Source of the DNA: Sphingobium sp. WTD-1
Lineage (GTDB): Bacteria > Pseudomonadota > Alphaproteobacteria > Sphingomonadales > Sphingomonadaceae
Direction of reading: 5' to 3'
Length of the DNA: 64,000 nt
Assembly: GCF_030128825.1 (NCBI RefSeq)
Contig: NZ_CP119128.1
Span: forward strand, 62,001-126,000
Position numbers and translations under genes: made by a program. Below, piece after piece: positions 14,764 through 35,560 of the stretch. The notes below the pieces were generated by a model that worked only from the letters and a program-made list of their open reading frames with translations, searched no databases and had not been told where the DNA came from. How positions within the stretch are numbered: the stretch's first letter is position 1; every line of letters begins with the position of its first letter.

Positions 14764-14764
14764 T

Positions 14765-15454: not shown

Positions 15455-15503
15455 CCGTTAAGAGGATATAAACTCATGGTGATCGCAAGTATTAAATCAT
15501 GGT

Positions 15504-16098: not shown

Positions 16099-16127
16099 AT
16101 CTGCGATGAACGGTGATTCACATGGGA

Positions 16128-16158: not shown

Positions 16159-16184
16159 ACCCCCCTAACCGGGGGTGCCATGCC

Positions 16185-16637: not shown

Positions 16638-16683
16638 GTCGAGCGCGGTGTTGAAAGCAGATGTCTTATGACTATCCTGCCCC

Positions 16684-16947: not shown

Positions 16948-17131
16948 ATCCTACTGCCGGCAATCGGCTCAAACCGGCCGTCAGTTTAAGTCTCACTCCA
17001 CCATTGCGTGCTTCTGCGCAACACGTCGGCCAAGACTGGCGCGGATGCCGTTATCTAACTGGGAAATGCCTGTAGAACGTGGAAATCGACACACCAATTG
17101 CAGAGGCAATCTCGGTGGCCGACATCTCGGT
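16948..17131 (-). pseudogene. Serine-recombinase C-terminal HTH fragment plus flanking noncoding
   Basis: Minus-strand bases 17131 to 17051 encode EMSATEIASAIGVSISTFYRHFP and a stop. This resembles the C-terminal helix-turn-helix that ends Tn3-type resolvases and invertases. The rest of the gene is missing because an IS21 fragment begins at 17132. The 100 bp between this stop and the RHH gene (16948-17050) contain nothing I can identify. Confidence 0.55.
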
Positions 17132-17626
17132 TGTCAAACGGCGTTCAAAAGGGACCCCCGATCGGCGTCGAAGAGGGACCCCTTTTCGGATATGATGTTG
17201 GTTTGTTGAAGATGGCCTTGCGCTGCGTGCGGCGGAGGGCGGGCGTAGCCCGACCGGAGGCGCGCGCAGCGCAAGATAGATTTTTGAAGGCGCCGAAGGT
17301 GGCTGTCAGCTGCGGTTTTTGAAGCGCCAGCTGTCGTTGCCCGTCTCGACGATATCGCAGTGGTGGGTGACGCGGTCGAGCAGCGCCGTGGTCATCTTGG
17401 GATCGCCGAACACGGTCGGCCATTCACCGAAGGCGAGGTTCGTGGTGATGATGACGCTGGTGCGCTCATAAAGCTTGCTGATGAGGTGGAACAGCAACTG
17501 CCCTCCCGAGCGGGCGAACGGCAGATAACCGAGCTCGTCAAGCACGATCAGGTCGAGCCGCGACAGCTGCGCCGCCAGGGTCCCGCCTTTGCCGATCCGG
17601 GTCTCCTCTTCGAGGCGTGTCACCAG
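17132..17626 (-). mobile_element. Truncated IS21 (IS21-A) end with 3' part of istB
   Basis: This stretch is the reverse-complement counterpart of the right end of the IS21 element at 54,478-54,973. It begins with the same end sequence (TGTCAAACGGCGTTC) and carries the C-terminal part of the IstB ATPase (17306-17626, with [18 protein letters not shown]). It stops abruptly at 17626, inside istB. The other end and istA are missing. It is the left member of a roughly 495-bp inverted repeat whose partner lies 37 kb away. Confidence 0.85.
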
Positions 17627-17795: not shown

Positions 17796-18608
17796 CTATG
17801 TCAGCGGAACATCGCGCTGGCCGCTCTTCCCGCCCGACCGGGACGGCTTTCGCCCATATCCCTCGCCCTGATCGAGCGTCCCGAACAGCCAGTCGTAGAG
17901 CAGCGTGATCGTCGCAAAATTGCCGCCGGTGAAGCGGGCATGATGATTGTGGTGCATCCGCGACATCGTCGCCAGATAGCGGAAGGGAAAACGATCGGAT
18001 TCCCACAGGTCATGATTGTGAAGGTTGATCTGCGAGAAGGCGACCCAGGTGATGACGATCGTCACGACATGGAAAGGCCCCATCAGCTGAGACAGCACGA
18101 AAATCGATCCGGCGTAGAGCCCAAGCCCCATGGCGACTTCCAGCGGGTGGATGTAGCTGGAATCCTGCCGGCAAGGGTTGTGCTGACGGTGGTGAACCGC
18201 GTGGACCCACATGAGGGGGCCTCCCAGGAAACCGCCGTCATGAAACAGGAACCGGTGCACCAGGTAGTAGAAGAAATCGTAGAACAGCAGAATCACGACG
18301 ATATCGAGCGCGACGTTCCACCACGCCTGGGGCTCCGCTGTCAGGCAGAAGGGCAGGATGAAGACGAAGATCAGCCCCATGAAGACTGGACCCCATCTAC
18401 GATTCCACGCCTGATTGGCGGCGTAGTTCGGCTTCGCCATCTTCGTGTCCCGCGCAGCCTGGTTGCGAGCGTACTCCGCGCGGAAGGTTGGAACGAGCAA
18501 GGCCAGATGCTTGCCGGCGAAGGTGAGCGCCGCAATGCCGATCGCCGCGTAGAGCGACAGCTGCCACTGGTAATGGCCCAGCAACTCTGAGAAAAATGAG
18601 GTGTCCAT
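17796..18608 (-). CDS. Fatty acid hydroxylase / sterol desaturase family protein
   Basis: This 270-aa integral membrane di-iron oxygenase has several hydrophobic segments. The histidine clusters of the family are present: HRFLFH (about residue 118), HAVHH (about 135) and HHNHH (about 219). Members hydroxylate or desaturate lipids, sterols or terpenoid-like substrates using O2. It lies just downstream of the C-terminal tail of Rieske-3. With the 13-kb inversion undone, it is the last gene of a seven-gene minus-strand oxygenase cluster. The substrate cannot be told from sequence. Confidence 0.85.
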   Translation of the reverse strand: MDTSFFSELLGHYQWQLSLYAAIGIAALTFAGKHLALLVPTFRAEYARNQAARDTKMAKPNYAANQAWNRRWGPVFMGLIFVFILPFCLTAEPQAWWNVALDIVVILLFYDFFYYLVHRFLFHDGGFLGGPLMWVHAVHHRQHNPCRQDSSYIHPLEVAMGLGLYAGSIFVLSQLMGPFHVVTIVITWVAFSQINLHNHDLWESDRFPFRYLATMSRMHHNHHARFTGGNFATITLLYDWLFGTLDQGEGYGRKPSRSGGKSGQRDVPLT

Positions 18609-18712: not shown

Positions 18713-19015
18713 TCAGGTGCAGCCCTGACGCCGCTGCAACGACCGCCAGTCCTGCCTTGGCGGAGGCATTGCCACATAATGGTCGATCGCTTGTTCGAAG
18801 TGCCGGATCCGCACCTCCTGATAGTTGCCGAGGGTGAGCGATTTCTTCGCTGCTGCCTCAAGCCCCTCCTGTTGCAGGAACAGGTTGTCCGTGTCCTGGT
18901 CGAGAATACGGCCAAAGCCGTCATCCATCCCCTCGGCCTCGGTGAACGACTGCTTATCCGACAGGATGACGGGCTCTGCCGGCACCGGGCGACGCCCGTC
19001 GGCAGGCATCGGCTT
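18713..19015 (-). pseudogene. Rieske-3 oxygenase, C-terminal tail (separated by inversion)
   Basis: These 100 codons encode the C-terminal tail of a Rieske oxygenase alpha subunit (KPMPADGRRPVPAEPV, then FGRILDQDTDNL and LGNYQEVRIRHFEQAIDHY). No start codon or Rieske motif is present. The missing upstream part is at 23813-24010 and 31307-32250. Joining TTCCTC at 32243-32248 through a shared AA to this tail restores the frame exactly, for a protein of about 480 aa. The split is explained by the 13.2-kb inversion described in the findings. Confidence 0.88.
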
Positions 19016-19701
19016 ACCTGTGCAAGCGACCGGCCTCGAACGATGATTACTATCCCGCGTTTAACCAGGCCAACGTCAAGCTGATCGACGTCGCTGAGAC
19101 GCAGGGCGTCGAGCGTCTGACCGAAAAGGGCTTCGTCCATCACGGCGTTGAGTACGAGATCGACTGCCTGATCCTGGCATCGGGCTACGAAGTCACCAAC
19201 GATCTCGACCGGCGCTGGGGCATCTCGCGCATCGAGGGGCGCGACGGCCTGTCGATCTACGACTACTGGCGCGAGGGCTTCAAGACCTTCCAGGGCATGA
19301 TGGCGCACGGCTTTCCCAACATGTTCTTCACCGGCTTCACCCAGGCCGGCGCCAATGCCAGCAATTCGAAGACCTTCATCGATCAGGGCTTCCACATCGG
19401 CTATGTCGCCAGCCAGGCGCTGCTGCGCGGCGCGGCGGTGGTGGAGCCGACCAAGCAAGCACAGGACGCCTACATCGCCCACCTGCGCTCGGTGGCGGTC
19501 GACAACTCGACCTACATCAACGAGTGCACGCCGAGCTATTTCAACAACGAAGGCGACACGACCAAGAAGCGCCACATCTTCGGCGAGCCTTGGGGTGAGG
19601 GCTACTACGCGTTCGAAGCGATGCTCGAAAAGTGGCGCGCCGCCGGCGACCTTGCCGGCCTCGAGCTCACCCGCGAGCCCGCCTCGGTGCCGGCGGAATA
19701 A
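19014..19701 (+). pseudogene. BVMO, C-terminal part (separated by inversion)
   Basis: This is the C-terminal 229 codons of a flavin-containing Baeyer-Villiger type monooxygenase (LCKRPASNDDYYPAFNQ, then EYEIDCLILASGYEV, PNMFFTGFTQAGANAS and FGEPWGEGYYAFEAML). It has no start. The N-terminal part is at 32249-33416 on the opposite strand. The two parts share a TT/AA dinucleotide at their edges; joined there they give one 617-aa frame with KPYYRYLCKRP across the seam, a normal length for the family. The gene as found is probably inactive. Confidence 0.9.
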
Positions 19702-19755
19702 AACGCCCCACCGAGCGGCCCTGCGTCACATTCGCGCGAACAATGGGAGGTTCCC

Positions 19756-21162
19756 ATGAACAAGCCAGAAAAGATCGTTACCAAAGACCTGTCGGAGGCG
19801 CTGACCTATCCTGTCGAGGCCTTCATCAGCCGCGAATATGCCGAGGCCGAGCCTGAACGATTGTGGTCAAAGGTCTGGCAACAGGCCGGACGCGTCGAGG
19901 AGCTACAGCAGGTCGGCGACTATATCACGTACAACATCTGTCACGATTCGATCCTGATCGTGCGCGACACGCCCGAAACGCTGAAGGCGTTCCATAATGT
20001 CTGCCCGCATCGCGGACGGCGGCTGGTCGGCAACAACACCGGCGGCGGTCCCAAGACGATCGCACAGGACGACGGCACGCACAGCGCCCGAGGGAACCGG
20101 TTGAAATTCGGCTGCAACTATCACGCCTGGACGTTCAACCTCGATGGCGACGCGACCTATATCCCCGACCGTGAGGACTGGAACGGCGCGCTCGACAGCG
20201 TCTGTACGAGCCTCGCGCCAGTGCAGGTCGATACCTGGGGCGGCTGGATCTGGGTCAACATGGACCTCGATGCCGGTCCCTTGCGCGAATGGCTGGAGCC
20301 CGTCGCGTCACTGATCGACCCCTTTGAATTCGACAAAATGCGCTATCGCTTCCGCTACTGGGGCATCTTCGACTGCAACTGGAAGGTGGCGCTCGAGGCC
20401 TTCCTCGAGCCCTACCACGTCCAGGGCACGCACCCGCAGCTGATGAAGTACGGCGATTTCTACTCGTTCAGCAAGGCCTTCGGCCTGCACGGCCAGACAG
20501 GCTTCGACTCCAAGGCGCATCGCGAAACCCGGTCGGCCGTCGAGACCTCGGTCCACCGCGCCGCCGGCGACGGCGATCTGCGCACGACGATCGCCCGGAT
20601 GCAGGCCGAATACTGGGAAACGATCGGCGCCAGCACGAGCGAGACGCTGGTCCGCACGGCCCAGCGCCTGCCGGCGGAGCTGCCCGAGGGCACTGCTGCG
20701 GCGGAAGTTCACAGGCGCTGGATGGAGATGGCCGTCGCCGAAGACGCCGCGCGCGGCGTCCACTGGCCGGAGCTCAGCGACGCCCAGGTCGCCGCGGCCG
20801 GTCTGGCGCTGTCGATCTTCCCCAACGTCAATTTCATTCCCGGTCCAACCTTCGCGCTTTGCTACCGCGTCCGCCCCTATGGCACCGATCCCGACAAGTG
20901 CATCTTCGAGGCCGTCGCGCTCGATCGCTTTCCGCCCGGCGAGGAGCCCGACACCGAATGGACCTATGTCGAGCAGGATCTGGAGAAGTGGCCTTACGTC
21001 ATCGCCCAGGACATCTCGAACATGGTCGAGGTGCACCGGGGCTACAAGTCGCGCGGCTTTCGCGGGAACCTCCCCAATCCGTGGCAGGAGCGCAAGGTGA
21101 CGAACCTTCATCGCGGGCTGGCCACATACATGGGGACCGGCGCGCCGCAGCCGCTGGGCTGA
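19756..21162 (+). CDS. Rieske non-heme iron oxygenase alpha subunit (Rieske-1)
   Basis: This 468-aa oxygenase has an N-terminal Rieske [2Fe-2S] domain, with CPHRGRRL (CxH, about residue 83) and CNYHAWTF (CxxH, about 120). The catalytic domain carries the mononuclear iron ligands in EAFLEPYHVQGTHPQ (about 218-232). It inserts O2-derived oxygen into an aromatic or alicyclic substrate, with electrons from a ferredoxin and reductase that are not encoded in this window. It lies 54 bp after the BVMO remnant and 86 bp before the TauD gene. It closely resembles Rieske-4 in architecture. Confidence 0.93.
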   Translation: MNKPEKIVTKDLSEALTYPVEAFISREYAEAEPERLWSKVWQQAGRVEELQQVGDYITYNICHDSILIVRDTPETLKAFHNVCPHRGRRLVGNNTGGGPKTIAQDDGTHSARGNRLKFGCNYHAWTFNLDGDATYIPDREDWNGALDSVCTSLAPVQVDTWGGWIWVNMDLDAGPLREWLEPVASLIDPFEFDKMRYRFRYWGIFDCNWKVALEAFLEPYHVQGTHPQLMKYGDFYSFSKAFGLHGQTGFDSKAHRETRSAVETSVHRAAGDGDLRTTIARMQAEYWETIGASTSETLVRTAQRLPAELPEGTAAAEVHRRWMEMAVAEDAARGVHWPELSDAQVAAAGLALSIFPNVNFIPGPTFALCYRVRPYGTDPDKCIFEAVALDRFPPGEEPDTEWTYVEQDLEKWPYVIAQDISNMVEVHRGYKSRGFRGNLPNPWQERKVTNLHRGLATYMGTGAPQPLG

Positions 21163-21181
21163 TCGCCACCTACGACAAAAC

Positions 21182-21195
21182 TTGCGCTCGATCAA
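21182..21195 (+). promoter_or_regulatory. Degenerate Fnr-like box upstream of the TauD gene
   Basis: TTGCGCTCGATCAA has one perfect half (ATCAA) and one degenerate half (TTGCG). Its centre is 60.5 bp before the ATG, the same distance as the perfect box upstream of Rieske-3. It is weak on its own and is listed because of that matching spacing. Confidence 0.3.
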
Positions 21196-21248
21196 AGCAG
21201 CGGTCCGCGAGTGCCGACACACTCAGTCCAGTTACAGGAGATCGCCAC

Positions 21249-22097
21249 ATGGCCACCACCACGTTAAGCCGCCTCCGGGCGGAAGAGATCAAGCCGAAGA
21301 TCGGCAGCCGTGTCCTCAACACCAAAGAGGAGCTGCTCAGCGGCAGGCTGACCGACGAGATCAACGAGCTACTCGAGCAGAGGGGCGTGCTCGTATTCAA
21401 GCAGCTCCACTTCACGGACGACGAGCAGATCGCCTTCACCAACGCGCTCGGCGGCAACGCGACGGAGATCGGCTTTCGCAACAAGGCCGTATTCCCGATT
21501 TCTCTCGACAAGAGCATCAACCAGGAAGTCGTCGAATATCTCAAGGGATCGTTGTTCTGGCACATCGACGGGACGATGAACGATGTCCCCGTGCGCGGCT
21601 CGATCCTGACCAGCAAGGTCCTGCCGACCTGGGGCGGCAACACCGAATTTGCCAATTGCTATGCCGCCTATGACGATCTTCCCGACGAGACCAAGGCGCG
21701 GATCGACGGCTTGCGGGTCGTCCACACCATGTGGGCTTCGCAGCTCTATCACACGCCCGAGCCGACGCTGAAGCAGCTCACCGACTGGCAGAGCCGCGGG
21801 CAAGGCAAGCGCGAGCTGCCGCTGGTCTGGAAGCACAAGTCCGGCCGAAAGTCGCTCGTGCTCGGCAACACGGCGCAATATGTCGTGGGCGTCGATGCCG
21901 AAGAGAGCGCGCGGATTCTCCACGGGTTGCGGGAATTCGCGACCAGCGAGCCTTACCACTACTCGCACGAGTGGGAAGTCGGGGATTCGGTGATGTGGGA
22001 CAACACCGGGACCCTCCACCGGGCCATGCCCTACGATCCGGATTGCGGCCGGCTTCTACACCGCACGATCCTGCAGGGCGACGAGCCCTTCGCCTGA
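21249..22097 (+). CDS. TauD/TfdA-family 2-oxoglutarate-dependent dioxygenase
   Basis: This 282-aa Fe(II)/2-oxoglutarate enzyme of the cytoplasm carries the facial triad HxD (FWHIDGTMND, about residues 97-106) and the distal histidine (TLHRAMPYD, about 255), followed by the 2-oxoglutarate-binding arginine in RLLHRTILQGD. Family members hydroxylate or cleave substrates such as taurine, 2,4-D or sulfate and ether compounds; the substrate here is unknown. It sits between two Rieske oxygenase genes in the same direction, 31 bp before Rieske-2, so it probably acts in the same catabolic route. Confidence 0.9.
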   Translation: MATTTLSRLRAEEIKPKIGSRVLNTKEELLSGRLTDEINELLEQRGVLVFKQLHFTDDEQIAFTNALGGNATEIGFRNKAVFPISLDKSINQEVVEYLKGSLFWHIDGTMNDVPVRGSILTSKVLPTWGGNTEFANCYAAYDDLPDETKARIDGLRVVHTMWASQLYHTPEPTLKQLTDWQSRGQGKRELPLVWKHKSGRKSLVLGNTAQYVVGVDAEESARILHGLREFATSEPYHYSHEWEVGDSVMWDNTGTLHRAMPYDPDCGRLLHRTILQGDEPFA

Positions 22098-22128
22098 CCC
22101 CGCCGCTCTCTGACCAACAGGTGCCACT

Positions 22129-23577
22129 ATGGCCGAAATGGACCCCGCAAATTTCGACGCGGCCGAGCAGCTTCCGCCGGTTAACCCGCTGCGTATCGAG
22201 AACCCTGCGCTGATACCCGCCGCCCGCTATTACGACGAGGCGTTCTATCGCCTCGAATGCGAGCGGCTTTGGCCGAACGTGTGGCAGATGGCCTGCCGGC
22301 TCGAGCAGATTCCGAATGTGGGCGACTGGATCGAGTATTCGAACGTCGGCAAGTCTGTGATCATCGTCCGGACGAAGGACGGGATCAAGGCGCACCAGAA
22401 CCACTGCCGTCACCGCGGCGTGCCGCTCGCCGGCGGGCAGGGCAACGCCGAAGGCAAAAGCGCGCACGGAAATTGCGCCAAGAGCGGCTTCATCTGTCCG
22501 TTCCATGGCTGGCGCTGGAATATGGAGGGTGAGTGCACCTTCGTCTATGGCCGCCACCTGTTCGATGAGGAGCTGCTGGACAAGGACGAGCTCGCCTTGC
22601 GGCCGGTGCGGGTAGAGACCTGGGGCGGCTGCGCTTTCATCAATCACAACCCCGATGCGCCTTCGCTGCGTGAGAGCCTGGGACCCGTGCTCGACCGGCT
22701 GGAAGCGCGCGGTATGAGCAAGCTCAGGTCGGAATGGTGGTTCGCCACTGTGCTTCCGGCGAACTGGAAGGTGGCGATGGAAGCCTTCATGGAAGGCTAC
22801 CACGTGATGAAGACGCACCCGCAGCTTCAGCATGCGCAGCCTAGCCTCTACAACAGCCGGTACGGAAACGAGACCGGCGGGCTCGGACCCACGGTCAACC
22901 CCAACGCGTCCGCACGGCAAAACGTCTGCGAAGCGCTGGATTCCATGGAACTGCTCAGTGCCGGAATGGCCGGGCTCGTTCACGGCAAGGAAGTCGAGAT
23001 CGCCCGGCAGTTCGAACATGCCGAGCTACCCGAAGATCCGCAGGTCGCCATGATGACCTGGTATGGGATGGTCTGCGAGGCGATCACGAAGCAGCTGCGC
23101 GAGCGGGGTGAGGACGTGCCTGATCTCGTGCAGGTTATGCAGGAGCATCCGGTCGAAGCGGTCGAATACCTCTTCCCGCACTACTTCCTGCTAACCTACT
23201 TCACCTCGATGTCGTCATACCGGATCCGTCCGCTTGGGCCGGAAAGCTGTCTTTTCGAGATCTGGTCGCTGACCCACTTTCCCGAAGGCCAGGAACCTGA
23301 GCCGGTGCGCGAGTCCACCGTGCTGCCGTTCGACAGCCAGGACTTTCCGATGATCCCCCGCCAGGACTATTCCAACATCCCGATCCAGCAGAAAGGGCTG
23401 CATTCCGAAGGGCTCGACGTGTTGCGGCTGTCAAAGGAGCGAGAAGGGCTGATCAGCAATTACCAGCGGCTCATTGACGGCTATATCGCGGGCGCGGAAG
23501 GTGAACGGCTGGCCGCCGCGAACCGGAAGCTCGGCGGCAACTTCGACGGTCCGATCCTCGATCTGGAGCTCGAATGA
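22129..23577 (+). CDS. Rieske non-heme iron oxygenase alpha subunit (Rieske-2)
   Basis: This 482-aa protein has a Rieske centre from CRHRGVPLAG (about residue 92) and CPFHGWRWNMEG (about 124), and iron ligands in EAFMEGYHVMKTHPQ (about 223-237). Between them the sequence WGGCAFINHNPDAPSLRE is the usual inter-domain strand. It is not a close copy of Rieske-1. It lies 31 bp after the TauD gene and was probably co-transcribed with it. Substrate unknown; the nearest general type is the phenylpropionate/large-substrate Rieske group. Confidence 0.92.
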   Translation: MAEMDPANFDAAEQLPPVNPLRIENPALIPAARYYDEAFYRLECERLWPNVWQMACRLEQIPNVGDWIEYSNVGKSVIIVRTKDGIKAHQNHCRHRGVPLAGGQGNAEGKSAHGNCAKSGFICPFHGWRWNMEGECTFVYGRHLFDEELLDKDELALRPVRVETWGGCAFINHNPDAPSLRESLGPVLDRLEARGMSKLRSEWWFATVLPANWKVAMEAFMEGYHVMKTHPQLQHAQPSLYNSRYGNETGGLGPTVNPNASARQNVCEALDSMELLSAGMAGLVHGKEVEIARQFEHAELPEDPQVAMMTWYGMVCEAITKQLRERGEDVPDLVQVMQEHPVEAVEYLFPHYFLLTYFTSMSSYRIRPLGPESCLFEIWSLTHFPEGQEPEPVRESTVLPFDSQDFPMIPRQDYSNIPIQQKGLHSEGLDVLRLSKEREGLISNYQRLIDGYIAGAEGERLAAANRKLGGNFDGPILDLELE

Positions 23578-23812
23578 CAGCGCTCGGCGTGCAAGCGCAT
23601 CCTGTGGCCGCGTCTCGCCGGTCAGCGAAGCGGGCGTTTCTTGCCCCTGGGCGCTAGCGCCGCGATCAGGTCTGCGGCCGCCTCTACTCCGAGCAATGTT
23701 CTGCCTCCTCAGGCAAGCGAGCTGCGCTGCGGGTCAACGCTCAATTTGATCCGCATCAACAAGGGGAACGCAGCCCCGGGCGTACTTCCTGGCCATCAGG
23801 AGGACCAAGCTC
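23578..23812 (+). promoter_or_regulatory. Intergenic region with perfect Fnr box upstream of Rieske-3
   Basis: The 14-bp site TTGATCCGCATCAA lies at 23746-23759, a perfect TTGAT-N4-ATCAA Fnr/FixK palindrome centred 60.5 bp before the Rieske-3 ATG at 23813. With a class II position (-41.5) the transcript would start about 19 bp before the ATG. The rest of this 235-bp gap shows no gene. Confidence 0.7.
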
Positions 23813-24010
23813 ATGAACTATGCCGACGCGAAATTGCAGAAGGGCAGCGCCCGCTGCCCGGCGATCAGCACCCAGGAGATCATCGCTCGCGATGCAGTGC
23901 CTGCTCCCGATTGGGTTCGCTCGGAGGCCTACAGCTTCCTCGGCGACGAGGATATTTCGGCCGACCGCTACATCGAGGCTGATTTCGCGCGGCTCGAATA
24001 TGAGCGGATG
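23813..24010 (+). pseudogene. Rieske-3 oxygenase, N-terminal part
   Basis: These are the first 66 codons of a Rieske oxygenase (MNYADAKLQKGSARC to FARLEYERM). They are interrupted after ATG at 24010 by an IS256-family element. The next codon, TGG, resumes at 31307 after the duplicated octamer AGCGGATG, giving YERMWTRTWQFACREEH, the normal start of a Rieske domain. A ribosome site (AGGAGGAC region) precedes the ATG. The gene is broken twice: by this composite insertion and by the inversion at its 3' end. Confidence 0.9.
24003..24010 (+). repeat. Target-site duplication, left copy (AGCGGATG)
   Basis: The octamer AGCGGATG directly precedes the left end of IS256 copy 1 and recurs at 31299-31306, directly after the right end of IS256 copy 2. 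The 8-bp length is usual for IS256 transposition. It shows that the outer ends of the two copies entered the Rieske-3 gene at a single target. Confidence 0.92.
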
Positions 24011-24132
24011 GGTAGCGTCCGAGGAGCTGGTGTAATTTCAGTGCCGTCCACGGTGTGATCCTGGGTGGCCATCGAGGTGTATGGTCGAGGTGGAGTTTGC
24101 CGACTTCAACCCCGGACCACATGGAGACCCCG

Positions 24133-25338
24133 ATGACCAAGACGAACATGGACCTGTCCGACCTTCTGGCCAAGCACGATCAGGGAGACTTTCTGCGCAG
24201 CATTGCCGAGGCCGTCCTGCAGCTGATCATGGAGGCGGATGTCGAAGGCCTGATCGGCGCTGGCAAGCACGAGCGCAGCGGCGAACGCACGACGTGGCGT
24301 AACGGGTATCGAGAGCGCGCTCTCGATACCCGTCTGGGCACGCTGAACCTGCGGGTTCCCAAGCTGCGTCAAGGCAGTTACTTCCCGGGCTTTCTCGAAG
24401 CGCGCAAGACCTCGGAGCAGGCGCTGGTGGCCGTCATCCAGGAGGCGTGGATCAGTGGCGTATCGACCCGCCGCGTCGATGAGCTGGTGCAGGCCATGGG
24501 GCTGAGCGGCATTTCGAAGAGCACGGTGTCGAAGCTGTGCAAGGACATCGACGAACGTGTCGGCGAGTTCCTGAACCGCCCGCTCACCGGCGAATGGCCC
24601 TATCTCTGGCTTGACGCCACCTATCTGAAGGTGCGCCAGGGCGGAAGGATCGTACCAGTCGCGGCAATAATCGCCGTGGCCGCCAACACCGAGGGACGCC
24701 GTGAGATCATCGGCCTCGGTATCGGCCCGTCCGAGGCCGAGACATTCTGGACCGAGTTCCTTCGATCCCTGCGTGTTCGCGGCTTGGGAGGCGTCAGACT
24801 GGTCATCAGCGACGCGCATACAGGGCTCAAAGCCGCCATCGCCCGGGTCTTCGAAGCAACCTGGCAACGCTGTCGCGTCCACTGGATGCGCAACGCCCTG
24901 GCCCATGTCTCGCGTGGCCAGCATACCGTCGTCGCCGCTGCCATCCGGCAGGCCTTCGATCAACCCGACCGCACCCATGCCGGCGAAACCTGGCGAAAGG
25001 TCGCAGAGCAACTGCGCCCGCGCTGGCCAAAACTGGCTGATCTCATGGATGCCAGCGAGCACGACGTGCTGGCCTACATGTCATTCCCGCGCCAGCATCG
25101 CACCAAGCTGCACAGCACGAACCCAATTGAACGCCTGAACAAGGAGGTCAAGCGACGCGCCGATGTCGTCGGGATCTTCCCCAATGAGGCATCCATCACG
25201 CGTTTGATCGGCGCCGTACTGTTCGAGCAAAATGACGAATGGCAGACATCAAGCCGCTACATGATGGTCGAGGCATTCGCACAGATCGACAAGGAGGAGA
25301 TCGATCCCATCCTCAGCATAACCACAAAAGCCGCCTGA
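24133..25338 (+). CDS. IS256-family (mutator-type) transposase, copy 1
   Basis: This 401-aa DDE transposase has catalytic residues in LWLDATYLKVRQGG (first D), LVISDAHTGLKAAI (second D) and STNPIERLNKEVKRR (E). The element's ends are imperfect inverted repeats, GGTAGCGTCCGAGGAGCTGG on the left and the complement of CCAGCTTGACGGACGTGACC on the right. The ATG at 24133 follows a GGAG at suitable spacing. A 30-bp perfect palindrome lies inside the gene at 24303-24332. It differs from copy 2 by one residue seen (N versus S at position 5). It appears intact. Confidence 0.95.
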   Translation: MTKTNMDLSDLLAKHDQGDFLRSIAEAVLQLIMEADVEGLIGAGKHERSGERTTWRNGYRERALDTRLGTLNLRVPKLRQGSYFPGFLEARKTSEQALVAVIQEAWISGVSTRRVDELVQAMGLSGISKSTVSKLCKDIDERVGEFLNRPLTGEWPYLWLDATYLKVRQGGRIVPVAAIIAVAANTEGRREIIGLGIGPSEAETFWTEFLRSLRVRGLGGVRLVISDAHTGLKAAIARVFEATWQRCRVHWMRNALAHVSRGQHTVVAAAIRQAFDQPDRTHAGETWRKVAEQLRPRWPKLADLMDASEHDVLAYMSFPRQHRTKLHSTNPIERLNKEVKRRADVVGIFPNEASITRLIGAVLFEQNDEWQTSSRYMMVEAFAQIDKEEIDPILSITTKAA

Positions 25339-25436
25339 TCATGCCCTCAGGCCATCCAGAAAATTACACCAGCTTGACGGACGTGACCAGGGCTAGCTAC
25401 CCCGTCGGCAACTGACCCACCTCAAAGGGGATTCGC

Positions 25437-27206
25437 ATGGAATACAACAGCGGCAATTTCTACGCCTTCGCCCGCCCCCGCAAACCCGCAGGGGTGGATG
25501 GCAAGACCGCCTGGTTCGTCGGCTCGGGCCTTGCGGCGCTTTCGGGCGCGGCCTTCCTGATCCGCGACGGCCACATGGCCGGCGAGAGGATCACCATCCT
25601 CGAGCGGCTGGCGCTGCCGGGCGGCGCGCTGGACGGCATCGAGGAGCCGGAAAAGGGCTTCGTGATCCGCGGCGGGCGCGAGATGGAGGACCATTTCGAA
25701 TGCCTCTGGGACCTTTACCGCTCCATCCCCTCGCTGGAGATCGAAGGGGCCAGCGTGCTCGACGAGTTTTTCTGGCTCAACAAGGACGACCCCAACTATT
25801 CGCTGCAACGCGCCACCGTGAACCGGGGGCAGGACGCGCAGACCAACGGCCTTTTCACCCTGACCGAGAAGGCCCAGAAAGAGGTCATCAAGGTCTTCTT
25901 CGCCACCCGGGAGGAGATGGAGAACAAGCGCATCGACGAGGTCTTCGGCAAGGAATTCCTCGACAGCAACTTCTGGCTCTACTGGCGGACGATGTTCGCC
26001 TTCGAGGAGTGGCATTCAGCGCTGGAGATGAAGCTCTACCTGCACCGCTTCATCCACCATATCGGCGGGCTGCCGGATTTCTCGGCGCTGAAATTCACCA
26101 AGTACAACCAGTATGAATCGCTGGTCCTGCCGCTGGTGAAATGGCTGCAGGACCACGGCGTCAACTTCCGCTACGGGATCGAGGTGACGGATGTCGATTT
26201 CGACATCCAGCCGGGCCGCAAACAGGCGACCCGCATCCACTGGCTGGAGAACGGCAGCGCGGGCGGCGTGGATCTCGGCCCCGACGATCTGGTGTTCATG
26301 ACCATCGGCTCGCTGACCGAGAACTCGGACAGCGGCGACCATCACACGCCTGCGCGGCTGGACGAAGGCCCCGCCCCGGCCTGGGATCTGTGGCGCCGCA
26401 TCGCGGCGAAGGATCCGGCTTTCGGGCGGCCCGACGTCTTCGGCGCGCACATCCCCGAAACGAAGTGGGAGTCGGCGACGGTCACCACGCTCGACGCGCG
26501 CATCCCTGAATACATCCGCAAGATCGCCAGGCGCGATCCGTTCAGCGGCAGGGTGGTCACCGGCGGCATCGTCACCGCGAAAGATTCGAGCTGGCTGCTG
26601 AGCTGGACCGTCAACCGCCAGCCGCATTTCAAGAAACAGCCGAAAGACCAGATCGTTGCCTGGGTCTATTCGCTGTTCGCCGACGTGCCGGGCGACTATG
26701 TGAAAAAGCCGATGCAGGACTGCACCGGCGAGGAAATCACGCAGGAATGGCTCTACCACATGGGCGTTCCGGTAGAGGACATTCCCGAACTCGCCGCGAC
26801 CGGGGCGAAGACCGTGCCGGTGATGATGCCCTACGTGACCTCCTTCTTCATGCCGCGCCAGGCGGGCGACCGGCCCGACGTGGTGCCGGAGGGCGCCGTC
26901 AACTTCGCCTTCATCGGCCAGTTCGCCGAATCCAGGCAGCGCGACTGCATCTTCACCACCGAATACTCGGTGCGCACGCCGATGGAGGCGGTCTATACCC
27001 TGCTGGACATCGAGCGCGCCGTGCCGGAGGTGTACAACTCGACCTACGACATCCGCAAGCTGCTGGCCGCCACCGGCCGCCTGCGCGACGGCAAGGAACT
27101 GGACCTGCCCGGCCCGGCCTTCATCCAGAAGCTGCTGCTGCGCCGGATCGAGGGCACGCAGATCGGCGAATTGCTGAAGGAATTCCATCTGGTTTCCGGC
27201 GAGTGA
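25437..27206 (+). CDS. ohyA: Oleate hydratase (FAD-dependent)
   Basis: This 589-aa enzyme of the myosin-cross-reactive-antigen family adds water to the double bond of oleate and similar fatty acids, giving 10-hydroxystearate. The FAD-binding fold begins at about residue 24 with WFVGSGLAALSGAAFLIRDG. Further family marks are GFVIRGGREMEDHFEC (about 76-91), YNQYESLVLPLVKWL and NFAFIGQFAESRQRDCIFTTEYSVRTPMEA-like sequence near the C-terminus. Length matches bacterial homologues, so it looks complete. It starts 48 bp inside the composite element and its codon choice looks foreign to the neighbouring oxygenase genes. A GGGG run precedes the ATG. Confidence 0.95.
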   Translation: MEYNSGNFYAFARPRKPAGVDGKTAWFVGSGLAALSGAAFLIRDGHMAGERITILERLALPGGALDGIEEPEKGFVIRGGREMEDHFECLWDLYRSIPSLEIEGASVLDEFFWLNKDDPNYSLQRATVNRGQDAQTNGLFTLTEKAQKEVIKVFFATREEMENKRIDEVFGKEFLDSNFWLYWRTMFAFEEWHSALEMKLYLHRFIHHIGGLPDFSALKFTKYNQYESLVLPLVKWLQDHGVNFRYGIEVTDVDFDIQPGRKQATRIHWLENGSAGGVDLGPDDLVFMTIGSLTENSDSGDHHTPARLDEGPAPAWDLWRRIAAKDPAFGRPDVFGAHIPETKWESATVTTLDARIPEYIRKIARRDPFSGRVVTGGIVTAKDSSWLLSWTVNRQPHFKKQPKDQIVAWVYSLFADVPGDYVKKPMQDCTGEEITQEWLYHMGVPVEDIPELAATGAKTVPVMMPYVTSFFMPRQAGDRPDVVPEGAVNFAFIGQFAESRQRDCIFTTEYSVRTPMEAVYTLLDIERAVPEVYNSTYDIRKLLAATGRLRDGKELDLPGPAFIQKLLLRRIEGTQIGELLKEFHLVSGE

Positions 27207-27413
27207 GCAAAGCCGAGGGGGTGCGGTCGACGCTCGCCCCCTCGCGCCATGCTGCCGGCACCCTCTCGGCCCCTTGATCGTGGGCACCTCCCGCCGTTTG
27301 GAGGCCGGGCGTAGCGCGCCCGCCCTGTGGGCACAAACCCACACAACGGCCCGATTGGGGCCCACGTCGTACACTGGAGGGTGCCCACGCCCCGCCAAAG
27401 CCGCCAGAGCCCC

Positions 27414-28235
27414 ATGAATGCCCCCGTCGATGTCTCCTTCTTCCCGCGCGCTGCCAAGCCGCTGACCAGCTACCGGCCGTACTGGGCCAGGCGCTTCGGC
27501 ACGGCGCCGTTCTTGCCGATGAGCCGCGCGGAAATGGACCAGCTCGGCTGGGACAGTTGCGACGTGATCCTGGTCACCGGCGATGCCTACGTCGACCACC
27601 CCAGCTTCGGCATGGCCGTGATCGGCCGCGTGCTGGAAGCGCAGGGCTTTCGCGTCGGCATCATCGCCCAGCCCGACTGGCAGAGCAGCGAGCCTTTCAA
27701 GGCGCTGGGCCGCCCCAACCTGTTCTGGGGCGTGACGGCGGGCAACATGGATTCGATGATCAACCGCTACACGGCCGATCGCAAGATCCGCTCCGACGAC
27801 GCCTACACCCCCGGCGACGTGGGCGGCAAACGTCCCGACCGCGCCGCCATCGTCTACAGCCAGCGCTGCCGCGAAGCCTACAAGGGCGTGCCCATCGTGC
27901 TCGGCGGCATCGAGGGCAGCCTGCGCCGCATCGCCCACTACGACTACTGGAGCGACAAGGTGCGCCGCTCCATCGTGGTGGACAGCAAGTGCGACATCCT
28001 GCTCTACGGCAACGCCGAGCGCGCGCTGGTCGAGGTGGCCCACCGCATCGCCCGGCGCGAGCCGGTGGACAGCATCACCGACGTGCGCGGCACCGCTTTC
28101 GTGCGCCGCGCGCCGGCGCCGGACTGGTTCGAGGTCGACTCCACCACGGTCGATGAGCCCGGCCGCGTCGAGCCGCCGATCAACCCCTACCTGAGCACCA
28201 GCGAGCAGGCCGCCGCCCAGGGCCAGAGCTGCGCA
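27414..28235 (+). pseudogene. ygiQ: YgiQ-type radical SAM protein, N-terminal part
   Basis: This 274-codon fragment matches the N-terminal UPF0313/YgiQ domain ([64 protein letters not shown] blocks). The radical SAM core with its CxxxCxxC cluster is missing because the gene is cut at about 28235 and fused to an IS91 remnant. It lies 207 bp after the oleate hydratase; that gap contains no gene. It is probably non-functional. Its function in complete form is not established beyond radical SAM membership. Confidence 0.85.
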
Positions 28236-29637
28236 CTACCCGGACTTCATTGTACGGATCGAAGCGGAGGGCCGCTCGCTGCCCGGATATGTCCGCGAGG
28301 CGTTCGATGCCTACCTGCGTTGCGGCGTGCTCGAGCACGGCTTCCTGCGGGTGGTGTGCGAGCACTGCCGTGCAGAGAGGCTGGTGGCCTTCTCCTGCAA
28401 GAAGCGCGGGTTCTGCCCGAGTTGCGGCGCGCGACGCATGGCCGAGAGTGCGCGGCACCTGGTCGAGGAGGTGTTCGGCCCGCGGCCTGTGCGGCAATGG
28501 GTGCTGAGCTTTCCGTACCCCTTGCGTTTCCTGTTCGCCAGCAAGCCAGAAGCCATTGGCCCGGTGCTGGGCATCGTGCAGCGCGTGATCGCCGGCTGGT
28601 TGGCCGATCAAGCCGGCATCGACCGCGCCAGCGCCCAGTGCGGCGCGGTGACGCTGATCCAGCGCTTCGGCAGCGCGCTGAACCTGAATGTTCACTTCCA
28701 CATGCTGTGGCTCGACGGCGTGTACGACGCGAACGTCGAGCCCCCGCGGCGCAAGCCGCGCCTGCGCCGCGCCCGTGCCCCCACCTCTGCGCAACTGACG
28801 CAGCTCGCCAACACCATCGCGCATCGCGTCTGCCGGCACCTGACGCGCAAAGGCTGGCTGGAAGGCGAAGACGAATCCGTGTTCCTGTCCGACAGCGCGG
28901 GTAGCGACGACGGCATGGATGGGCTGCGGATGAGTTCGATGACCTACCGCATCGCCACCGGTCGCGACGCTGGCCGCAAGGTCGTCACGCTGCAAACATT
29001 GCCCGGTGACGCAGGCTCGCTGGAGGGCGACGCCGGCAAGGTCGGCGGCTTCTCGCTGCATGCCGGCGTGGCCGAGGAAGCACACGAAAGCCACAAGCTC
29101 GAAAAGCTGTGCCGCTACATCACGCGCCCGGCGATCAGCGAGCAGCGGCTGTCGATCTCACCGCAGGGTAGGGTGCGGTATCAGCTCAAGACGCCGTGGC
29201 GAAATGGGACCACGCATGTCGAATGGGATGCGGTGGACTTCATCGCCAAGCTGGCGGCACTGGTCCCGCCACCTCGCGCGCATCTCACCCGCTTCCACGG
29301 CGTATTCGCCCCGAATGCAAACCTGCGTGCGCAGCTGACGCCCTCGGGGCGCGGCAAGCGGCCTGCGGGCGATGCGGCGCCAGTGGACGTCAGCGCCCAC
29401 GACGAGCCGCGCAGCCCCGAGCAGAAGCGCCGTGCGATGAGCTGGGCGCAACGGCTCAAGCGGGTCTTTTCCATCGACATCACCACCTGCGCCCACTGCG
29501 GCGGCGCGGTACGGATCGTCGCCAGCATCGAGGAACCCACCGCCATCCGCGCCATCCTCGCCCACTTCGAGAAGCACGGCGCGCTGGAGCAAGCGCACTA
29601 CCGGCCCGCAGCGCGCGCGCCGCCGCCGGCCGCGTGA
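28231..29637 (+). pseudogene. IS91-family transposase, 5'-truncated
   Basis: This rolling-circle type transposase has a zinc-finger region ([31 protein letters not shown]), the HxH-type motif in [12 protein letters not shown], and a C-terminal Zn-ribbon (TTCAHCGGAVRIVASIEEP). It reads in frame from [15 protein letters not shown], but the first 20-30 residues of the family are missing, because the sequence is fused to ygiQ at about 28233. The element is therefore a remnant with only its 3' end. The 283 bp after it (29638-29920) hold the IS91 end (GTTGAAC near 29867) and about 45 bp of unidentified coding-like sequence. Confidence 0.85.
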
Positions 29638-30042
29638 CGAGGTGCCGGCCACACAGCCGGCAGCCAAGCCAGAGTCCGATCCGATGCGGCCACGACCCCG
29701 CAGGGCTGCGCTCGGCCCTGTGCCGGGATTCGGTGAGAAATGGCTACGCACTGAGCCGCTGCGTGGCCCCGCGATGTCGAAAACCCACGCATGAACCCCC
29801 GATCTGTGCCCAAAGCGGCGCTTGCGCGGCCGCTTCCTACCCGCCAGACTCGCAAAAAAGGGCGGTTGAACTTCCTATACCCACAAGGGCAAGCTGGGCC
29901 GCGCCTCGGGCGAGGGCTTCGGTAGCGTCCGAGGAGCTGGTGTAATTTCAGTGCCGTCCACGGTGTGATCCTGGGTGGCCATCGAGGTGTATGGTCGAGG
30001 TGGAGTTTGCCGACTTCAACCCCGGACCACATGGAGACCCCG

Positions 30043-31248
30043 ATGACCAAGACGAGCATGGACCTGTCCGACCTTCTGGCCAAGCACGATCAGGGAGACT
30101 TTCTGCGCAGCATTGCCGAGGCCGTCCTGCAGCTGATCATGGAGGCGGATGTCGAAGGCCTGATCGGCGCTGGCAAGCACGAGCGCAGCGGCGAACGCAC
30201 GACGTGGCGTAACGGGTATCGAGAGCGCGCTCTCGATACCCGTCTGGGCACGCTGAACCTGCGGGTTCCCAAGCTGCGTCAAGGCAGTTACTTCCCGGGC
30301 TTTCTCGAAGCGCGCAAGACCTCGGAGCAGGCGCTGGTGGCCGTCATCCAGGAGGCGTGGATCAGTGGCGTATCGACCCGCCGCGTCGATGAGCTGGTGC
30401 AGGCCATGGGGCTGAGCGGCATTTCGAAGAGCACGGTGTCGAAGCTGTGCAAGGACATCGACGAACGTGTCGGCGAGTTCCTGAACCGCCCGCTCACCGG
30501 CGAATGGCCCTATCTCTGGCTTGACGCCACCTATCTGAAGGTGCGCCAGGGCGGAAGGATCGTACCAGTCGCGGCAATAATCGCCGTGGCCGCCAACACC
30601 GAGGGACGCCGTGAGATCATCGGCCTCGGTATCGGCCCGTCCGAGGCCGAGACATTCTGGACCGAGTTCCTTCGATCCCTGCGTGTTCGCGGCTTGGGAG
30701 GCGTCAGACTGGTCATCAGCGACGCGCATACAGGGCTCAAAGCCGCCATCGCCCGGGTCTTCGAAGCAACCTGGCAACGCTGTCGCGTCCACTGGATGCG
30801 CAACGCCCTGGCCCATGTCTCGCGTGGCCAGCATACCGTCGTCGCCGCTGCCATCCGGCAGGCCTTCGATCAACCCGACCGCACCCATGCCGGCGAAACC
30901 TGGCGAAAGGTCGCAGAGCAACTGCGCCCGCGCTGGCCAAAACTGGCTGATCTCATGGATGCCAGCGAGCACGACGTGCTGGCCTACATGTCATTCCCGC
31001 GCCAGCATCGCACCAAGCTGCACAGCACGAACCCAATTGAACGCCTGAACAAGGAGGTCAAGCGACGCGCCGATGTCGTCGGGATCTTCCCCAATGAGGC
31101 ATCCATCACGCGTTTGATCGGCGCCGTACTGTTCGAGCAAAATGACGAATGGCAGACATCAAGCCGCTACATGATGGTCGAGGCATTCGCACAGATCGAC
31201 AAGGAGGAGATCGATCCCATCCTCAGCATAACCACAAAAGCCGCCTGA
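30043..31248 (+). CDS. IS256-family transposase, copy 2
   Basis: This is the second copy of the 401-aa mutator-type transposase, in the same orientation as copy 1 and identical apart from S instead of N at residue 5. The element spans 29921-31298, the same 1,378-bp length. The DDE residues are all present, and the same 30-bp internal palindrome occurs at 30213-30242. Two near-identical direct copies allow deletion of the intervening cargo by recombination. Confidence 0.95.
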   Translation: MTKTSMDLSDLLAKHDQGDFLRSIAEAVLQLIMEADVEGLIGAGKHERSGERTTWRNGYRERALDTRLGTLNLRVPKLRQGSYFPGFLEARKTSEQALVAVIQEAWISGVSTRRVDELVQAMGLSGISKSTVSKLCKDIDERVGEFLNRPLTGEWPYLWLDATYLKVRQGGRIVPVAAIIAVAANTEGRREIIGLGIGPSEAETFWTEFLRSLRVRGLGGVRLVISDAHTGLKAAIARVFEATWQRCRVHWMRNALAHVSRGQHTVVAAAIRQAFDQPDRTHAGETWRKVAEQLRPRWPKLADLMDASEHDVLAYMSFPRQHRTKLHSTNPIERLNKEVKRRADVVGIFPNEASITRLIGAVLFEQNDEWQTSSRYMMVEAFAQIDKEEIDPILSITTKAA

Positions 31249-31298
31249 TCATGCCCTCAGGCCATCCAGAAAATTACACCAGCTTGACGGACGTGACC

Positions 31299-31306
31299 AG
31301 CGGATG
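31299..31306 (+). repeat. Target-site duplication, right copy (AGCGGATG)
   Basis: This octamer follows the right inverted repeat of IS256 copy 2 and matches 24003-24010. Removing the composite element and one copy restores the Rieske-3 reading frame. Confidence 0.92.
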
Positions 31307-32250
31307 TGGACGCGCACCTGGCAGTTCGCGTGCCGTGAAGAGCATATTCCTGATATCGGCGACTATTGTGTTTACGACATAGGTGCTCATTCGTTCATCG
31401 TCACGCGCGTGGCCGAGCATGACATTCGCGCCTATTACAACGCCTGCCTCCACCGCGGCACAAAGCTGCGGCACAGCGGCACCGAAGGAAGCGCCAGCGA
31501 GTTTCGCTGCCCGTTCCACGGGTGGAGCTGGAACATCGACGGCTCGTGTCGGAAGGTGCTTTGTGACTGGGATTTCCCGCATGCGCGACCGGAGGAGCTC
31601 GCGCTGCCCGAAGCCCGCGTCGCCACGCTCGGCGGCTTTGTCTTCATCAACATGGATCCTGAGGCGCCGAGCCTCGAGGACTATATCGGCGAAGAGGCAC
31701 TCGCCCATTTCCGCGCGTGGAAGCTGGAGGACCGCTACGTCTACTGTCACGTGATCAAGCGGCTTCAATGCAACTGGAAGCTCAACCAGGAAGCGTTCCA
31801 CGAAGCCTATCATGTGCTCGAGACGCATCCGCAGGTCTCGCCGTCCAACGGCGACGCCAACTCACAATATGACTTCTACGGCGCTCATGTGAACCGCTTC
31901 ATCTCGACGCTCGGTGTCGTCAGTCCTCATCTTTATGGCAAGATCACCGAGCAGGATGTCCTCAACCAGTTCGTCCTGGGTGATGCGAGCGCGCTGGATG
32001 GCGCACAGCGGCGCCTGGCAGACGGCGAGACCGCGCGCAGCGCCATGGCCAAGCTGTTCCGCGCGGCTTTCGAGGCGGCGAACAATGCCGATCTTGGCGC
32101 AGTGTCGGACTCCGAACTGCTCGACTGCTTCTCCTACAACCTCTTCCCGAACATGTTCGTGTTCCCGGGGATCTCACTGCCGATGGTCTATCGGTTTCGT
32201 CCGGACCCGCGCGATCATCGGAAAAGCTTCTTCGAGGTGTTGTTCCTCAA
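31307..32250 (+). pseudogene. Rieske-3 oxygenase, central part
   Basis: These 314 codons carry the core of Rieske-3: CLHRGTKLRHSG and CPFHGWSWNIDG for the [2Fe-2S] centre, and QEAFHEAYHVLETHPQ for the mononuclear iron. The fragment continues 23813-24010 across the composite insertion and ends at RKSFFEVLFL. There it runs into the opposite-strand BVMO fragment at the inversion junction (AA at 32249-32250). The apparent extra residues NGNRA before the stop are junction sequence. The tail is at 18713-19015. Confidence 0.9.
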
Positions 32251-33416
32251 CGGTAATAGGGCTTGAGCGCTTCTGCGGTCTCCGGATCTTCGACGATATC
32301 GCAGCGCCGGCGCAGACGCTCCATTACGCGGTAGTCCATGATCTCGCGCCGGCGGGCGTACTCCTCCGGCGTGATGTCCGGCCAGCCCTCCGCCTCGAGT
32401 TCGGCGGCGAGATTGCGACTGATCTCGGTCCAGATATCCTGGACGAGATCGGGCTCCCCGGGGGACAGCCGCTCCATGGCGGCGTGATGGAAGTTCCTGA
32501 TCCGCTCTTCCTGCCAGCCGGGCTTCTGCGACCAAAACCACTCGGGGTCGATCGGCCGGTTGTTGCGGTGGTCGATCGTCGAGGGCGTGCGCTGAATCAC
32601 GTAGGTCTGGCCGGCGTACTTGGCGAGATAGGGCACGACCTGGATGGCGGTCGCGCCGGTGCCGATGATCGCCACCTTCTTGTCGCCGAGGTTGTCGAGC
32701 ACGGGGTTGCGCCACTCGCCGCCGGTATAGTCGTAATCCCAACGGGCCGTGTGGAAGATCTTGCCCTGAAAGTCGTCGAGCCCCGGAATGCCCGGCAGCT
32801 TCGGCTTGTTCAGCGGTCCCATGGCCAAGACCACGAAGCGCGCCTTGATGTCGTCGCCGCGGTTCGTGCCCACGCGCCAGCGGCTCAACCCCTCGTCCCA
32901 AACCAGGGTGTCGATCAGCGTGTGGAACAGAGCATTCTCGCGCAACTCAAACGTGTCGGCGATGATCTGGCAATGATCGTGGATTTCGTAGCCGTCGGCG
33001 AACTTCTTCGACGGCATGTAGTTCGTCTCTTCGAGCAGCGGCATGTAGACCAGGCTGTCGTTGTCGCACTGGATGCCGGGATAGCGGTTCCAGTACCAGG
33101 TGCCGCCGAAATTGCCGCCGTGATCGATATTGTAGAAGTCGCTGATGCCCGCCTTCTTGAGCTGGGCCGCAACCATCATGCCGCAGTAGCCGGCGCCGAG
33201 AATGACCACCTCGGTTTCACCAGTGATGGGCGCGCGCGGCTTGACCGGCGTGTACGGATCGACCTCATAGATGTCTGCCCACTTGCCGCTCGCGGACACA
33301 TACTGGTCATTGTGGTTCTTCTTGATCCGACGATCGCGCTCCCGCAGGTATTTGGCGCGCATCGCCGGGATATCGATCTCGCTGGCAGGCGGGCAATCGC
33401 TAGGCTTCAGGGGCAT
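32249..33416 (-). pseudogene. BVMO, N-terminal part (FAD/NADPH domains)
   Basis: This is 389 codons of a Baeyer-Villiger type flavin monooxygenase. It has the FAD Rossmann motif VVILGAGYCGMMVAAQL (about residues 51-67), the family fingerprint FQGKIFHTARWDYD (FxGxxxHxxxWD) and a second Rossmann motif VAIIGTGATAIQVV. The frame ends at AEALKPYYR, just where the inversion junction lies. The rest is at 19014-19701. The family inserts an oxygen atom next to a ketone using NADPH and O2. The ATG at 33416 has a GAGG ribosome site; longer upstream starts lack support. Confidence 0.92.
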
Positions 33417-34042: not shown

Positions 34043-35413
34043 TCATGGCACCTTCCGAGCAATCGGCTCGGGATGACCCGTGCCCATGTAGCGGGCAAGA
34101 TTGCGGTGCAGGCTGATGACGGCGCCCTCCGCCTTCGGATTGGGGATGTTTCCCCGATAGCCGAGATTCTTCATGCCCTGCTGCACCGCAGCCATGTTGG
34201 AAAAATCCTGCTGGAGCACGTGCGGGAAGTTCTCCGGCTCGGCGAATGTCCATTCGGTCTCGGGCGCCTGCCCATCCGGGTAGAGTTCGTAGACTGCGAC
34301 CTCGAAGTAGCACTTGCCGGGATCGAAACCGTAAGGCCGCGCCTGATAGCAGAGCATGTTGTTCACCGCATGGCCGATCTGCTGGTTCGGAAAGATCTGC
34401 CAGCTCGTGCCGCTCGCGGCGACGTGGGCGGGGTCGACCTCCGGCCAGAAGACACCGCGCTTCGCATCGATGGCCCGCGCGGTATCCAGCCAATATTTGA
34501 GCACCTCGCCCGCCGGCGTGCCCTCGGGCAGCACGTCGGGCAATGTCTGCGCGACATCGACCAACGTCTGCGTCGTGTTGGTGTTCACCCCTTCCCATGT
34601 GTATTTCTGCATCTCGGCGGTCGTTGTTCGCGGGTCGCCCGCCCCGAGCCGAAGCTTGGAGGCATTCTCCTTCGGCCCCTCGCCGGTGTCGTACCCGATG
34701 TGGCTGTGCTTGCCTTGCGGCCGGCCCCAACCGGTGAAGTCGCCGAACGCCATAAACTCCGGATGGGTGCCGGGCACATGGTAGGTCTCGTTGAAGGCCT
34801 CGAGCGCCACCTTCCAGTTGCAGTCGAACACCGTCCAGAAGCGCCAACGCGGCCGCATGTTCTGCAGCTCGAAGGGATCGAGCATCGTCGCAGCGGGTTC
34901 GAGATAATCGCGCAGCGGCTCGCAATCAGGATCGAGATTGACCCAGATGAAGCCGCCCCAGGTGTCGCATCTCACCGGGCCGAGGCGGGTATCCTCCTCT
35001 CGGAGCGCGCCGCCCCATTCATGCTGCGCCTGAATAAAAGTGCACTGCCCTTCAAGATCGAATGTCCAGGCATGGAAGCCGCAGACGAAGGTCATCTTCT
35101 TTCCGCGCGCATTGCGCTGCCCGGCAGGCGTGTCGACGAGGCGGCGGCCGCGATGGGAGCAGACGTTCCAGTAAGCCTTGATCGTATTGGCCTCAGTGCG
35201 GACGACGAGAACTGAATCCTCGAGGATGTCGTAGGTGAGGAAGTTGCCGATCTCGGGAATGTCTTCGACGCGGCCCGCCTGCAGCCAGACCTTTCGCCAG
35301 AGCCGGTCGCGCTCGGCGCGCGCATAGTCTTCAGAGACATAGGCTTCGACGGGAATCCGCACCGCCTTCGATGCGCGCTCTTCGGCCGCGGCGATCCTGC
35401 CCACCTCACCCAT
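34043..35413 (-). CDS. Rieske non-heme iron oxygenase alpha subunit (Rieske-4)
   Basis: This 456-aa oxygenase has Rieske ligands in CSHRGRRLVD (about residue 76) and CGFHAWTFDLEG (about 103), and iron ligands in EAFNETYHVPGTHPE (about 200-214). It is similar throughout to Rieske-1 (for example QQDFSNMAAVQQGMKNLGYRGNIPNP at its end), so the two may be paralogues with related substrates. The ATG at 35413 has GGGAG upstream; a longer frame exists but reads into the regulatory region. It is divergent from the amidohydrolase gene, with an Fnr-like box between them. With the inversion undone it heads the oxygenase cluster. Confidence 0.93.
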   Translation of the reverse strand: MGEVGRIAAAEERASKAVRIPVEAYVSEDYARAERDRLWRKVWLQAGRVEDIPEIGNFLTYDILEDSVLVVRTEANTIKAYWNVCSHRGRRLVDTPAGQRNARGKKMTFVCGFHAWTFDLEGQCTFIQAQHEWGGALREEDTRLGPVRCDTWGGFIWVNLDPDCEPLRDYLEPAATMLDPFELQNMRPRWRFWTVFDCNWKVALEAFNETYHVPGTHPEFMAFGDFTGWGRPQGKHSHIGYDTGEGPKENASKLRLGAGDPRTTTAEMQKYTWEGVNTNTTQTLVDVAQTLPDVLPEGTPAGEVLKYWLDTARAIDAKRGVFWPEVDPAHVAASGTSWQIFPNQQIGHAVNNMLCYQARPYGFDPGKCYFEVAVYELYPDGQAPETEWTFAEPENFPHVLQQDFSNMAAVQQGMKNLGYRGNIPNPKAEGAVISLHRNLARYMGTGHPEPIARKVP

Positions 35414-35546
35414 ATCCAGCTCCCTCAAAGTCGTCGCGACATGCGGCGTTGCTGCAGTCACATGTCTTGCGATCGCCGGGCTTTGATCGAGCGCAATTTC
35501 TGCTGCGGTTCGCCAGAGCGATGGCGGGCATGGCGGCGGCGACAAG

Positions 35547-35560
35547 TTGACCTCGATCAA
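35547..35560. promoter_or_regulatory. Fnr/FixK-like box between Rieske-4 and the amidohydrolase
   Basis: TTGACCTCGATCAA fits TTGA-N6-TCAA with one full ATCAA half and one TTGAC half. It lies about 140 bp upstream of Rieske-4 and 126 bp upstream of the amidohydrolase, in position to serve both divergent genes. Confidence 0.6.

Follow-up and report, generated by a model that had tools for sequence, protein, structure and literature searches.

A plasmid of a soil Sphingobium carries a 13-kb piece of an operon for a breakdown pathway in reversed orientation, and two enzyme genes are cut at its ends. The inversion is real and cleanly resolved; most likely it was a single, conservative event with nothing lost at either junction. 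We regard it as probable that the operon was hit by a composite insertion and by this one inversion, the latter most likely through Ku/LigD end joining, and that the outcome is a dead end and not a switch.

Results

Junctions and reading frames

Within the window, the whole stretch of 64,000 nucleotides analysed here, the inverted segment meets its surroundings at two dinucleotides (Table 1). The sequence is ...CATCGGC-TT-ACCTGTGC... at the left junction and ...TTCCTC-AA-CGGTAAT... at the right; both junctions are confirmed exactly where the sequence-only reading had placed them. Inversion of 19016-32248, 19015-32249 or 19014-32250 in silico gives the identical sequence, and thus the breakpoint is defined to the dinucleotide. 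On re-inversion the Baeyer-Villiger monooxygenase (BVMO) becomes an open frame of 617 aa with ...KPYYRYLCKRP... across the join, and the C-terminal part of Rieske-3 becomes continuous (...FEVLFLKPMPADG...). The operation bears out the claim that both joins, that of BVMO included, are in frame with no base lost. These two in-frame joins amount to one piece of evidence, because the undoing of a clean inversion across two genes necessarily restores both. Homology, not frame, is the independent test of the inversion. The expectation that its undoing restores both genes stands for BVMO and fails for Rieske-3, which is still split by an IS256-bounded insertion of 7.3 kb.

Table 1 Coordinates of the inversion, the operon genes and the composite element in the window
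Feature	Position	Strand	Remarks
Fatty-acid-hydroxylase/sterol-desaturase family gene	17796..18608	-	Pfam PF04116; outside the inversion
Rieske-3, C-terminal tail	18713..19013	-	outside the inverted segment
Left inversion junction, TT	19014..19015		C-terminal part of BVMO meets tail of Rieske-3
Inverted segment	19016..32248		13,233 bp; about 5.9 kb when the composite element and its duplication are subtracted
BVMO, C-terminal part	19016..19701	+	
Rieske-1	19756..21162	+	open frame, within the inverted segment
TauD-type dioxygenase	21249..22097	+	open frame; Pfam PF02668; ends converted from the A3 annotation
Rieske-2	22129..23577	+	open frame, within the inverted segment
Rieske-3, N-terminal part	23813..24010	+	66 codons, MNYADAK...EYERM, cut by IS256 copy 1
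8-bp target duplication AGCGGATG, left side	24003..24010		
IS256-family copy 1	24011..25388	+	1,378 bp; NF033543 above cut-off
Oleate hydratase	25437..27206	+	cargo of the element; NCBIfam above cut-off
Truncated YgiQ-type radical SAM gene	27327..28235 (end approximate)	+	cargo; NCBIfam E 3e-106
ISCR clade Ia transposase	28327..29637	+	cargo; NCBIfam above cut-off
IS256-family copy 2	29921..31298	+	one mismatch to copy 1 in 1,378, same orientation
8-bp target duplication AGCGGATG, right side	31299..31306		
Rieske-3, middle part	31299..32248	+	between IS256 copy 2 and the right junction; begins with the 8-base target duplicate
Right inversion junction, AA	32249..32250		middle of Rieske-3 meets N-terminal part of BVMO
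BVMO, N-terminal part	32247..33416	-	389 codons, then TGA (...KPYYR*)
Rieske-4	34043..35557	-	outside the inversion

Homologs through the joins

The homologs were retrieved with the joined sequences as queries, so that the lists consist of proteins related to the joined form; an incorrect register would nonetheless appear in them as a gap. The join is ungapped in all 120 listed homologs of BVMO (the best 120 of 7,997) and in all 120 of Rieske-3 (the best 120 of 5,278). KPYYRYLCKRP is found exactly in 55 of the 120 listed BVMO homologs, and in 55 of the remaining 65 the only changes are Y/F or Y/W. BVMO also passes through the join in 27 of 28 loci of other genomes (L003 to L030); the 28th, in S. 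lactosutens DS20, ends at codon 112. A conserved motif is coded at the BVMO site in 14 of the 14 relatives looked at. P0006, a database protein that matches 79% of Rieske-3 at 98% identity, passes through the other join. With in-silico re-inversion and homologs ungapped through both joins, the extent and the 2-bp register first proposed for the 13.2-kb inversion prove right.

A slightly different alignment over 5 bp (GGTAA/TTACC) had been offered beside it, and results from the presence of TTACCGTTACC in the restored BVMO site. It does keep both frames open, with a BVMO of 615 aa (KPYYLCKRP) and a Rieske-3 that reads ...FLNGKPMP..., but BVMO is two residues shorter and Rieske-3 two residues longer than in the 2-bp register, and none of the 240 listed homologs (120 per protein) has this length at the join. 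We rejected it on these grounds.

The two registers bear on replication-template switching or another microhomology-driven repair, which might have acted in place of Ku/LigD end joining. Such a process would make use of the 2 bp shared at the breakpoint, or of the 5 bp TTACC nearby in the shifted register. But the latter contradicts the listed homologs, and the former is near the chance level, as at least 2 bp of shared sequence accompany 18% of about 20,000 simulated random inversions in the region. Two reciprocal switches without net gain or loss would moreover be needed, and we consider this route unlikely.

Composite element in Rieske-3

Rieske-3 is also split by a composite element of 7,288 bp bounded by IS256 copies (24011-31298). 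The YgiQ fragment in its cargo covers positions 1-206 of the 558 of the NCBIfam model and, as a fragment, stays below the cut-off. No further full-length IS256 copy was found in the genome beyond the pair. Because the pair provides the only full-length IS matches found there, it most likely arrived as one composite element. P0006 (source tag lgn), known as a protein only, starts by eye at an internal GTG codon of the window frame, a start that may fit an upstream insertion without the inversion.

Mobile DNA could in principle have driven the inversion itself, through the IS256 pair or through some element that has left since. The segment does contain both IS256 copies and the ISCR transposase, with IS21 remnants near it. 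However, no IS end and no target duplication is seen at either junction. Both IS256 copies point the same way and lie inside the segment, their nearest ends at a distance of 4,995 bp from the left breakpoint and 950 bp from the right one, and all this makes such an origin very unlikely. On a larger scale, an exact inverted repeat of 496 bp (17131-17626 and 54479-54974), the end of an IS21 IstB gene (PF01695), brackets about 37 kb including the inversion. Homologous recombination at this repeat pair could flip the whole ~37-kb block.

Gene order in relatives

In 21 of the 28 loci, BVMO is followed within 6 kb by one or more further cluster genes on its own strand, and in 17 the first of them is Rieske-1. 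The distance between aligned ends is 13-186 bp in the loci versus 54 bp from the BVMO part to Rieske-1 here. The order BVMO, Rieske-1, TauD, Rieske-2 is seen in three loci (L006, L007 and L012). L008 has BVMO, TauD, Rieske-2, desaturase and is the sole locus of the 28 with the desaturase found downstream; its gap of only about 0.7 kb between Rieske-2 and the desaturase is too small for Rieske-3 and counts against the proposed original order. Rieske-3 between these two genes was seen in no relative, and its original place in the operon is suggested by the window itself. The Rieske-3 relatives L067-L072 have only about 1.5 kb of flank each.

Seven loci (L003, L019, L021, L023, L025, L026 and DS20) have no cluster gene downstream on the same strand. 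The contig ends after 57 and 1,363 bp in L003 and L023, respectively, and more than 4 kb is left in L019, L021, L025 and L026. A relative of Rieske-1 stands upstream on the opposite strand in L023, L025 and L026. The genome that carries the window has on contig C1 a diverged BVMO/Rieske-1 pair (G000:C1:1056154-1059370; 58% and 51% protein identity, L002), a possible backup. The same contig has a second Rieske-3-type gene (G000:C1:5020239-5021636), 69% identical and without internal stops.

Related plasmids and records

Sphingobium sp. A3 (NZ_CP060123.1, listed as S. yanoikuyae A3 plasmid unnamed1) matches the window from 1 to 25152 with two mismatches, at 326 and 16568; neither is at the left junction, which is identical. 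The A3 genome is described as a PacBio assembly corrected with Illumina data, with NZ_CP060123.1 as its 'Contig 5' (PMC8407694). Because this independent assembly carries the identical junction, the left junction is no assembly error, and the concern raised on that point by the sequence-only reading is refuted for this side. To an assembly or chimeric-read artefact in general we give practically no credence: beside the left junction shared by an assembly of another strain, another database sequence has a BVMO cut short at the same codon, and the junctions are reciprocal without loss.

The A3 match stops inside IS256 copy 1 (L074 15824, window 25152), where a Tn3-family element adjoins. As it runs through the left junction into this copy, the inversion is present in A3, and so is at least IS256 copy 1 in Rieske-3; both predate the parting of the two plasmids. 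The N-terminal part of BVMO has no match in the A3 record. Window 37626-60000 is found elsewhere on that record at 98.7%. Window 1-17000 holds F-type conjugation genes (names from the A3 annotation), and because of them the contig looks like a plasmid; the PLSDB type of the A3 record is non-mobilizable.

The two junctions differ in outside coverage. With the left junction as query, 20 records matched, and only A3 among them did so over 80% of the query; with the right junction there were 15, none over 80%, so that no second DNA record was obtained for the right junction. P0241, a protein of 443 aa known as such only, ends at the same codon as the 443-aa frame of the window at the right junction; two of its last five residues differ, and its cluster includes the window's own protein. 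It may be taken as a hint, the sole one from outside, for the right junction.

A search of the genus (94 genomes) gave, among the matches listed and beyond the own genome, only one genome at 97%, to judge by place and score that of DS20. The match stops at BVMO codon 112 (L030 10336, window 33081), so the DS20 record retains the N-terminal side of BVMO only, and its break would fit an inverted or an un-inverted ancestor alike; nothing more of the operon turned up at that identity in the DS20 draft genome. Some kb beyond this break lie a tyrosine recombinase and an AbiEii-type gene. In a plasmid search a 21-kb query matched 1,361 records, and of the 25 listed among these A3's alone has cluster genes; the others match IS sequence. 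In the proposed search for relatives with the un-inverted arrangement, BVMO runs through the join nearly everywhere in the loci compared, and the whole un-inverted operon at >95% identity was found in no relative.

Mechanism of the inversion

The dinucleotide had suggested a serine recombinase, with simple end joining as the alternative and phase variation as a possible consequence. A serine recombinase that crosses over at 2 bp, possibly reversibly, would give a conservative, site-specific exchange centred on a dinucleotide, like the present one, and the genome has 20 resolvase-domain (PF00239) matches, seven of them on contig C2, which carries the window. But none of the 20 lies within the window, the nearest starting about 10 kb beyond its end, and the two sites are unlike each other. 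Centred on TT, the flanks of the original sites agree at 2 of 20, 5 of 26 and 14 of 60 positions, which is the chance level, and their dyad symmetry is 1/10 and 3/10. The longest inverted word common to both within 150 bp has 9 nt, and words of at least 9 nt occur in 97 of 200 random pairs. At the BVMO site, furthermore, the relatives looked at code for a conserved motif, and the left junction is oriented in A3 as it is here. Taken together, these points make a serine recombinase highly improbable, and neither that suggestion nor phase variation finds support. An unrecognised conservative recombinase that inverts at almost any pair of sites sharing only TT/AA is more improbable still, to the point of being barely credible; if true, it could silence this plasmid operon and on rare occasions reactivate it with no sequence lost.

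End joining, in contrast, fits better than a serine recombinase, as the flanks and the 2-bp overlap are near chance. Two Ku genes and two LigD_N genes are present, each LigD_N within 5 kb of a Ku gene, on contig C1. End joining often trims the ends, and the untrimmed junctions count against it. On balance we infer Ku/LigD as the agent of the inversion.

Discussion

The reading we prefer, a composite insertion and a Ku/LigD-joined inversion, starts from an ancestral plasmid operon in which Rieske-4, BVMO, Rieske-1, TauD, Rieske-2, Rieske-3 and the desaturase would all have run in one direction. One lesion would be the insertion of the IS256-bounded composite element into Rieske-3, and the other a single conservative inversion with its ends inside BVMO and Rieske-3. 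For the latter, two double-strand breaks would have been rejoined with the middle piece reversed, via the shared TT/AA or by plain ligation. BVMO would thereby be deprived of its last 228 codons and Rieske-3 of its tail, and Rieske-1, TauD and Rieske-2 would now point away from the operon's upstream part. Loss of function of BVMO and Rieske-3 is predicted from the truncations, and Rieske-1, TauD and Rieske-2 have probably lost their expression.

The mechanism is ordinary and reveals no new system, and the example is unusually clean: a well-resolved conservative inversion that broke two genes at once, left no footprint and is older than the split of two sequenced plasmids. It documents the decay of a plasmid catabolic operon, by a composite element and an inversion here, by a later loss beside a Tn3 element in A3 and by a different break in DS20. 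It is also a warning to annotators, as the gene pieces at the two junctions derive from two genes.

Comparison with known systems places the parts of this locus as follows. The best NCBIfam model for the N-terminal part of BVMO is the PtlE-type BVMO (neopentalenolactone/pentalenolactone D synthase; E 7e-129), but this partial protein scores 430 bits where the curated cut-off is 1100, and no assignment is made. In invertons, both ends carry recombination sites in inverted orientation, as a rule with dyad symmetry. With them and with phase-variable inversions by serine recombinases, the present case shares a reciprocal inversion and a dinucleotide breakpoint. It differs in that the ends have no inverted repeats or dyad-symmetric sites, the window has no resolvase-domain match that could be a cognate recombinase, and both ends cut genes. 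The likeness to inversion by Ku/LigD NHEJ is closer, as the ends share neither long homology nor a recombination site, the junction has 2 bp in common, and the genome encodes two copies each of Ku and LigD; the difference is that no base was lost at either junction, and the mechanism is here proposed from sequence. The element in Rieske-3, finally, resembles an IS256-bounded composite transposon in its near-identical, direct IS copies with cargo between them and in the 8-bp duplication outside the pair, the target duplication of IS256 being 8-9 bp long; it is set apart here as a separate lesion that left the inversion junctions untouched.
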